The notes under the pieces were generated by a model. That model saw only the letters and a list, made by a program, of their open reading frames with translations. It ran no database searches and had not been told where the DNA came from. This document shows, piece after piece, positions 6,595 through 8,213 of a DNA stretch of 56,422 nucleotides; the stretch's first letter is position 1; each line of letters starts with the position of its first letter. The stretch comes from Clostridia bacterium (GTDB lineage Bacteria; Bacillota; Clostridia; UMGS1883). The position numbers and the translations under genes were made by a program. The stretch lies in contig JAFQQD010000071.1 in the NCBI GenBank assembly GCA_017411435.1, positions 1 to 56,422 of the forward strand, given 5' to 3'.

Positions 6595-6623
6595 ATTATA
6601 GTAAAAAAAGCTTCGTTAGTCAA
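6595..6623 (-). promoter_or_regulatory. Promoter of secD-secF
   Basis: On the minus strand, TTGACT, a 17-nt spacer, then TATAAT. It lies about 40 bp before the secD ATG. Confidence 0.8.
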
Positions 6624-6646
6624 TAGAAATTCACAATTATTTACTG

Positions 6647-7432
6647 TTAAGGATTAATGGTATAATACTTCTCAACCTTAAGAGTGAAGGGGAGAGAACC
6701 CGAATTTATAAGTGTTGCAAGCAATCGCGCACTTTCTTTGTCATAGTTACCGGTAATAATACAGGTGTCAGAATCTATTGCCTCGGTAACAGTAGGACTT
6801 GCCTGAATAACTTCGTCAAGCGCAATGGAAATTATATTTTTCCCCTCTTTTGCGACTAAGGCTATCTGGGTTGCTTTGTAAAACTCCTCCTGACCCTTTT
6901 TGGTAAATGACATCTGAACATAGTGTGTTTTTTTGCCTGTCTCATTTACAGGGCCGTAGAGTGCAGTAGCACCCTTTATGTTTTCTCTTGAACCGTCCAT
7001 AATTGCGTAGCCGTCAGCATCAAAGAATTCAAGCTTTGCGGTAGTGCAGAGCGTGCTTGCAATATTTATCGGGTCGTCACAATCGGGGATTTCAATACGA
7101 AAACCCGTATTACCCTCACGGGAAACAGTCGCCTCGGCAAAGCCTTCTGTATCAAGTCTTGTGCGGATTACGGCTTCTGCCGTATCCATATCTTCTTCTT
7201 TGATTGCAGCGGCGTCATCAACATCGGGCTTGAGTATAATGATACTGCCGACAGAAGACTCTTCTTTTTTGGGCTGCTTTTTATCCTTGTCAGAAAAATC
7301 TGACTCTTGTGAGTCATAATTGTTGTTTGTGCTTTTGAAATTATTTGATTTAGTGATAAATATGGCAACATACACACATGCGAGAACGGCTGCCATAACA
7401 AGTAAAAGTGCAACAACTTTTCTGGATTTCAT
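6647..7432 (-). CDS. SecD paralogue reduced to N-terminal anchor and external head domain
   Basis: 261 aa. The first 25 residues (MKSRKVVALLLVMAAVLAC…) align with SecD helix 1. A charged, Lys/Glu/Ser-rich insert (about 33-60) replaces the region before GSIIILKPDV. From there to GSLPFTLKVE the protein follows the neighbouring SecD head nearly block by block (DTAEAVIRTRLD, KLEFFDADGYAIMDGS, IKGATALYGPV). It then stops after a short tail (KYYTINP). The GLDLVGG motif and all five C-terminal helices are absent, so it cannot use the proton gradient as SecD does. It has its own promoter and an AGGAGG site, so it looks maintained rather than decayed. It arose by duplication of secD; function is unknown. 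Confidence 0.85.
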   Translation of the reverse strand: MKSRKVVALLLVMAAVLACVYVAIFITKSNNFKSTNNNYDSQESDFSDKDKKQPKKEESSVGSIIILKPDVDDAAAIKEEDMDTAEAVIRTRLDTEGFAEATVSREGNTGFRIEIPDCDDPINIASTLCTTAKLEFFDADGYAIMDGSRENIKGATALYGPVNETGKKTHYVQMSFTKKGQEEFYKATQIALVAKEGKNIISIALDEVIQASPTVTEAIDSDTCIITGNYDKESARLLATLINSGSLPFTLKVEKYYTINP

Positions 7433-7472
7433 GTATTTTCCTCCTTTGTTTTGCTATTAAAATGACAACTTT

Positions 7473-7501
7473 ATTATATTACTAAAAGTGTTTTTCGTCA
7501 A
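7473..7501 (-). promoter_or_regulatory. Promoter of the secD-like gene
   Basis: Minus strand TTGACG, 17-nt spacer, TATAAT, about 40 bp before the ATG. The arrangement mirrors the secD promoter. Confidence 0.75.
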
Positions 7502-7514
7502 TGGAGACAAGCGA

Positions 7515-7892
7515 TTATTTACTGTTTATTCCCAGTATTCCGCCAATACCTCCGCACAATACGGATAATCCGAAAACCTTTGTAAGTCTGAGCGTGAAAA
7601 TATTGCTGTTAAATATTAAAAAGCCCAGTAAAACAAGAATTCCTATGTAAAAAAATGAGGCTAAAGCGCCCGTAATAAAGCCGCGGCGTGAAGATGCTCT
7701 TGCACATAGGAAGGAAGCGATGAATCCCGACAACAGATAAGCATAGTCTGAAAAAAGATTCAAAACCCACTTGCTTGGCGGAAAGAATGAGAAAATGATG
7801 CTGCTGACGGAAAGTATTAAAAGTGTGATAAGAAACGCCAGCAAGAAAGAAACAATGTATTTTTTTACATTAAAATTTGAAATAAAGTTCAT
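7515..7892 (-). CDS. TIGR04086-type small membrane protein
   Basis: 125 aa, four predicted membrane helices (about 12-34, 47-63, 70-92, 100-122) and little else. Length, topology and position next to yajC and secD fit the TIGR04086 family of Firmicutes, whose role is unknown. The gene lies 42 bp after yajC and is probably co-transcribed with it. The assignment rests on topology and context rather than a catalytic motif. Confidence 0.7.
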   Translation of the reverse strand: MNFISNFNVKKYIVSFLLAFLITLLILSVSSIIFSFFPPSKWVLNLFSDYAYLLSGFIASFLCARASSRRGFITGALASFFYIGILVLLGFLIFNSNIFTLRLTKVFGLSVLCGGIGGILGINSK

Positions 7893-7934: not shown

Positions 7935-8213
7935 TTATTCGTGGATTGTAAGAACTCGGCTTATTGCGTTCTTCTGGAATTTGATAGTTGATTTCTCTGC
8001 GCCTACGCCTGTTTCAATAACAACTTCGTCTTCCTTAATCTTTACGACCTTTCCGATGATTCCGCCGATTGTAACAATCTTGTCGCCCATCTGAAGGCCG
8101 TCAAGCATAGTTTGCATTGCCTGTCTCTGCTTCTTCTGGGGACGGAGAATTCCGAAATAGAGAATAAGAATAAAAGGAGCAAAAGTGATTACAAGAGATA
8201 AAATTGCTTCCAT
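7935..8213 (-). CDS. yajC: Preprotein translocase subunit YajC
   Basis: 92 aa. One N-terminal helix (about 5-23) leads into LRPQKKQRQAMQTMLDGLQ and GDKIVTIGGIIGKVVKIKED, the diagnostic YajC core. YajC associates with SecDF in the membrane. AAAGGAAG precedes the ATG. It stands upstream of the SecD-like and secDF genes on the same strand, completing an export cluster. Confidence 0.95.
   Translation of the reverse strand: MEAILSLVITFAPFILILYFGILRPQKKQRQAMQTMLDGLQMGDKIVTIGGIIGKVVKIKEDEVVIETGVGAEKSTIKFQKNAISRVLTIHE

Follow-up and report, generated by a model that had tools for sequence, protein, structure and literature searches.

Upstream of secD in a Clostridia bacterium lies a shortened tandem copy of that gene, which encodes a membrane anchor and the extracytoplasmic P1 domain and has been retained by purifying selection. 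The gene, named HEAD here for a head-only SecD paralogue, was analyzed within a window of 56,422 nucleotides, positions 1 to 56,422 of contig JAFQQD010000071.1; "head-only" serves as shorthand, and "anchor plus P1" is the exact description. The best explanation for HEAD, to which we give about an even chance, is a selected tandem duplicate that would act at the Sec exit as a tethered head binding polypeptides without proton coupling; its location, its ligand and its effect on export are what we infer. Rather than junk, HEAD is probably a genuine accessory component of the export machinery.

HEAD followed the adjacent SecD through helix 1 and P1, as an earlier note on this DNA had claimed, with 55% identity over 252 aligned residues. 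Both P1 Pfam models were matched above their gathering cut-offs of 27, SecD_1st (PF21760) with 45.1 bits (6.5e-12) and SecDF_P1_head (PF22599) with 53.9 bits (2e-14), and the Pfam search gave no match in HEAD to the SecD_SecF_C membrane domain (PF02355). The earlier note was also correct that the GLDLVGG motif and the C-terminal helices are missing: the alignment placed EESSVGS at the position of the motif, TM2–TM6 were absent, and the open reading frame, intact as had been stated, ended with LKVEKYYTINP immediately ahead of the expected start of TM2. Against the SecD model TIGR01129, HEAD scored 78.9 bits, under the curated cut-off; by this cut-off and by its predicted anatomy, HEAD is not a SecD.

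The insert described earlier as Lys/Glu/Ser-rich was recovered as a 32-residue linker, for which the AlphaFold model gave pLDDT values of 31–44 over most of its length. The same model corrected the description of the protein as an anchor and external head only. The anchor and the head were present, but the base is also kept, and residues 61–259 formed a complete P1 domain of base and head with pLDDT mostly above 90. The best solved match of the model was 3aqo_C (Z 21.0, rmsd 1.9 over 184 residues), from the crystal structure of the isolated P1 domain of Thermus SecDF. The VLAC sequence ending at C19 fits a PROSITE-type lipobox, but the hydrophobic stretch runs on where polar residues would be expected to follow, and the neighboring SecD, with the same C19, fits the pattern too. 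Sequence analysis and the structural model together show that the predicted protein has an extracytoplasmic P1 domain tethered to the membrane through a flexible charged linker, and that it lacks both the motif and the helices by which SecD is coupled to the proton gradient. The features of the locus are collected in Table 1.

Table 1. Features of the HEAD locus (window positions) and of two relic loci in other genomes
Feature	Position	Strand	Remarks
secF, 292 aa	4367..5245	-	PF02355, Sec_GG
secD, parent gene, 438 aa	5242..6558	-	TIGR01129 331.9 bits, cut-off 244.4
secD promoter, TTGACT-17-TATAAT	6595..6623	-	own promoter
Second copy of AACAGTAAATAA, 3' end of HEAD	6637..6648	-	first two bases within HEAD stop codon; duplication junction
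HEAD (head-only SecD paralogue)	6647..7432	-	261 aa, intact ORF
HEAD residues 249-261, final base strand of P1 (251-259), followed by stop	6650..6688	-	alignment and AlphaFold
HEAD residues 132-248, P1 head subdomain	6689..7039	-	PF22599; omega 0.129; SecD's known substrate-binding subdomain
HEAD residues 62-131, P1 base N-terminal part	7040..7249	-	PF21760; relaxed, omega 0.225 vs 0.099 on other branches
HEAD residues 29-60, K/E/S/D/N-rich linker	7253..7348	-	replaces SecD stretch containing GLDLVGG; predicted disordered
HEAD residues 5-28, single TM helix (SecD TM1)	7349..7420	-	predicted helix; best 19-mer hydropathy 3.0
HEAD ribosome-binding site AGGAGG	7440..7445	-	7 nt before ATG
HEAD promoter, TTGACG-17-TATAAT	7473..7501	-	11/12 consensus match; homologous to secD promoter
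Last 12 nt of DUF3792 gene (AACAGTAAATAA)	7515..7526	-	upstream end of duplicated unit
DUF3792 gene, upstream neighbor	7515..7892	-	PF12670; donor of duplicated unit's 5' end
yajC	7935..8213	-	PF02699
Relic copy upstream of secD (G009, G014; first of two loci)	L036:3042-3350	-	homologous to G010 copy
Relic copy upstream of secD (G009, G014; second of two loci)	L039:1-370	+	homologous to G010 copy

The DNA homology between HEAD and secD started within the final 12 nt of the upstream DUF3792 gene, spanned the promoter and the ribosome-binding site, and stopped after about codon 245 of secD. The alignment of the two upstream regions scored 77, compared with 21.6 ± 3.7 for shuffles (maximum 36). 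The AACAGTAAATAA tail, the promoter and the ribosome-binding site also precede secD in the congener G001, and the promoter and ribosome-binding site, with variants of the tail, precede it in G002 and G003. On sequence grounds, these comparisons show that tandem duplication of a unit comprising the end of the DUF3792 gene, the secD promoter and ribosome-binding site, and secD codons 1 to about 245 gave HEAD; the origin from secD proposed earlier is thus shown and the duplicated unit is delimited. The consensus promoter and AGGAGG site that had been credited to HEAD were both present, but they lie within the duplicated unit and recur before secD, and are not an invention of HEAD. Because secD has its own promoter, it is independent of the HEAD promoter. 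Codon bias, judged against 134 sampled genes, placed SecD at the 91st percentile and HEAD at the 58th, which is average and predicts that HEAD expression is probably ordinary and lower than that of SecD.

A branch codon model of 171 P1 codons gave an omega of 0.153 on the HEAD branch and 0.150 elsewhere, and omega = 1 was rejected (2ΔlnL 34.9). The HEAD neutrality test gave 2ΔlnL 35.9 without the near-identical tract described below and 19.5 with HEAD placed outside the genus, and neutrality was also rejected for the copies of genomes G007 (35.1) and G008 (6.5, p = 0.011). The earlier note had held that a dN/dS near 1 would mark a decaying duplicate; with a dN/dS of 0.15 and neutrality rejected, the retention that it proposed is borne out. 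The TM1 of HEAD, with only 28 codons, had an omega of 0.78 that was not different from 1. When P1 was split, the base was under tighter constraint than the head on the other branches (0.099 vs 0.172), whereas on the HEAD branch the base was looser (0.225) and the head tighter (0.129), a shift supported by the LRT (p = 5.5e-5). In all eight copies of this kind found in Clostridia (see below), the head was closer to the parent SecD than the base was (sign test p = 0.008); the contrast was individually significant in seven and not significant in G043. SecD–SecD pairs within a family showed the opposite, with the base more conserved than the head, and distant pairs were about level. HEAD kept 27 of the 27 family-invariant SecD positions of the head and 14 of the 21 of the base, compared with 0 of 8 in the linker and 0 of 5 in TM1. 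These data show statistically that purifying selection maintains HEAD and is concentrated on the head subdomain, while TM1, the linker and the base drift.

Gene conversion from secD may inflate the conservation of the head: HEAD residues from about 138 to 159 were near-identical to SecD at the DNA level, and codon identity in the heads was above random. Base and head had similar codon identity in G043, G206, G414 and L190, and conversion therefore does not account for the contrast in these four copies. The synonymous branch leading to HEAD was 5–6 times as long as that of its SecD sister, partly because SecD is strongly codon-biased and HEAD is not, and the duplication may be older than the pairing with SecD suggests. 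Alternative tree placements of HEAD were 8–12 lnL units worse with the full alignment, and several were not rejected by the AU test at 5%.

The source genome is that of an uncultured clostridial gut bacterium, and its nearest named relatives are MAGs, several of them from ruminant gut (sheep, goat, roe deer). No copy of HEAD was present in the five congeners with a readable locus (G001, G002, G003, G004 and G006). The gap between the DUF3792 gene and secD was 85–96 nt in G001, G003 and G004; in G006 it held an unrelated small ORF, and in G002 a different gene lay upstream of secD. A direct scan of the named genomes with HEAD found no encoded relative, and a search of a plasmid collection gave distant matches only, mostly full SecD. 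The earlier note had taken absence from relatives as a second sign of decay, and HEAD is indeed absent from its congeners; the copy is, however, lineage-specific and not decaying, and equivalents arose independently elsewhere. Among the 31 genomes of the genus of G206, a copy beside secD was found only in G206 and G414, and G043 is the single genome of its genus that could be compared. Relics of head-only copies, homologous to the intact copy of G010, lie upstream of secD in G009 and G014. Given these relics and the absence of HEAD from its congeners, such copies are dispensable over longer times.

The same design was found 5' of secD or at an old secD site in eight Clostridia lineages or copies, HEAD included; these come from samples, not a census, and all from MAGs or draft genomes. 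Outside the genus, copies lay 5' of secD in G007 and G008 of the sister genus, in G043, G206 and G414 of other families, and in JAFQHW010000047 (L190), and in G010 the copy stood at the old secD site behind a SCIFF maturase gene, with secD relocated. The count omits the free P1 heads unlinked to secD in G199, G131, G289 and G104, and the G031 hit is a SecD that breaks off where its contig ends. Copies paired in the tree with the SecD of their own genome: HEAD with support of 95/91 (98/94 in an earlier tree), G007 with 89/94, G008 with 100/100, and G043, G414 and L190 each with 100/99. The G206 copy did so (100/99) in the first tree only, where G206 was the sole member of its genus, and the G010 copy was placed near the SecDs of its family without a clear partner. 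On the tree, the eight copies required 8 changes of label, and well-supported branches forced at least seven of these. A single ancient HEAD family was rejected, since the copies group with the SecD of their own genome, although gene conversion could mimic part of this pattern.

The copies differ greatly in age. All of them end 11 to about 25 residues past the LPF motif, ahead of TM2, at the P1/TM2 junction. Lipoprotein signals were found in five, by the PROSITE pattern in G008, G206, G414 and L190 and by eye in G043 (CFSAC); the G007 copy has a TM or signal segment and the G010 copy a signal peptide. TM1 was replaced by a lipoprotein signal independently in G008, G043, G206, G414 and L190, so that the surface tether was kept and TM1 was not.

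The P1 head of SecD holds a substrate-binding pocket, is moved by the proton motive force and contacts the anchored chaperone PpiD (PMC11470409). HEAD, derived from the adjacent secD, shares the P1 fold and the head residues with SecD (P1 of SecDF; 3aqo, 3aqp, 5xam, 5xan) but lacks the GG motif, TM2–6 and the proton pathway and has a new charged linker. We propose that HEAD would provide, at the external opening of the Sec channel, an extra polypeptide-binding head that is independent of the proton motive force. It would hold emerging chains, stopping their back-sliding or aggregation, or would hand them to SecDF. This mode would be comparable to that of anchored chaperones at the translocon exit such as PpiD, a parvulin-type protein. 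HEAD and PpiD/YfgM-type chaperones have in common a single anchor and an extracytoplasmic module proposed to bind emerging chains, but the HEAD domain is unrelated and the analogy would lie in the proposed mode of action only. That all 27 invariant head residues are unchanged suggests the same kind of ligand as for SecD, and the shift of constraint from base to head speaks more for a head that binds a substrate or ligand than for a partner in contact with SecF. Gene order is the sole physical tie of HEAD to SecYEG/SecDF, and the same order would follow from tandem duplication by itself.

More broadly, and with slightly less than even confidence, we suggest that Clostridia have repeatedly, at least seven times, uncoupled the SecD head from its proton motor and placed it next to SecDF with an anchor or a lipid tail of its own, where it would serve as a passive translocation ratchet or holdase, an undescribed convergent accessory factor of the Sec exit. 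Targeted searches of open-licence papers turned up neither secD paralogues nor free P1 domains that had been described before. Natural, selected, motor-free heads of many origins would allow a direct test of the shares that simple capture of chains by the P1 head and proton-driven pulling have in the effect of SecDF, by asking whether a motorless head aids secretion and which ligand it binds. The copies would also form a recognizable class of accessory factors, ones that would be labeled truncated SecD by automatic annotation.

It is unlikely that HEAD is an envelope protein independent of SecDF, in which the P1 head would have been co-opted as an all-purpose surface module for binding peptides or ligands, unrelated to Sec. 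P1 heads do occur on other scaffolds away from secD, with SLH domains in G104 and the copper amine oxidase N-terminal domain in G199 and G131, and the drift of the base, TM1 and linker and the average codon bias of HEAD beside the strong bias of SecD would fit such a role; the gene lies, however, directly 5' of secD here and in most other cases, and its invariant head residues are all unchanged. The fold and head surface shared with SecD and the position in the SecD gene cluster would also suit a regulator or competitor, a free P1 that occupies a partner (SecF P4, YidC, the SecY exit or a PpiD-like chaperone) and so tunes SecDF. We find this quite improbable: in 8/8 pairs the diverging part is the base, the portion that SecDF structures show packed against SecF P4, and in G010 the copy stayed at the old site when secD moved off. 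In other Clostridia, P1-head fusions with S-layer homology or copper amine oxidase N-terminal (Cu_amine_oxidN1) domains were observed at L107:1902-2924 (+), L104:2207-3097 (+) and L105:1934-2890 (+). Like HEAD, they carry a P1 head outside SecD, but they have different anchors, are unlinked to secD and are far more divergent; by these fusions, Clostridia use the P1 head as a mobile module of the cell surface.

A decaying or transient duplicate without function would explain the absence from congeners, the relics in G009 and G014 and the very different ages of the copies, but there is very little chance of it given an omega of 0.15, neutrality rejected for three separate copies, 261 codons still open after synonymous saturation, a good promoter and ribosome-binding site, and at least seven origins with the same end point. 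HEAD as a pseudogene was ruled out by omega and the intact frames. We give hardly any credence to a secretion monitor of the VemP/SecM/ApdA type, an upstream ORF whose translation arrest controls secD. Arrest-peptide surveys have collected uORFs (<300 aa) that lie upstream of secDF and have no known function, and HEAD, like the known monitors treated in the part of the survey covered here, lies directly upstream of secD and has an N-terminal export signal; no SecD-like uORF was seen in that part (PMC10987492). VemP, ApdA, ApdP and other arrest peptides share with HEAD an exported ORF directly upstream of secD, but HEAD has a folded, conserved P1 and lacks an arrest motif. It has no RAPP-like C-terminus, no C-terminal motif is common to the eight copies, selection acts on the folded head and not on the tail, and the RNA of the HEAD-secD junction folds no better than shuffles (z -0.37). 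An arrest-peptide uORF was rejected on the missing motif, the lack of a hairpin masking the SD and the separate promoter of secD. The tethered, proton-uncoupled head at the Sec exit is the reading that we prefer.

Other genes were observed upstream of secD among the relatives. In G002, the usual place of the DUF3792 gene directly upstream of secD is taken by a gene for a protein of 1034 aa (L043:2007-5111 (-)), which carries a P-loop (GDPGSGKS) and looks NACHT/STAND-like by eye. The small ORF of G006 between the DUF3792 gene and secD encodes 117 aa and is apparently exported (L046:2899-3252 (+)); an ORF of similar size was seen at L048:4015-4368 (-). The source genome's genus has no SCIFF-maturase-like gene at the secD locus. 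By contrast, a radical-SAM gene resembling the SCIFF maturase lies directly upstream of secD or the head-only copy in the sister genus and in other members of the family, between it and the DUF3792 gene where the latter is present (L035, L036, L038, L041, L047 and L049), and a SCIFF peptide gene is visible in L047 and L049.
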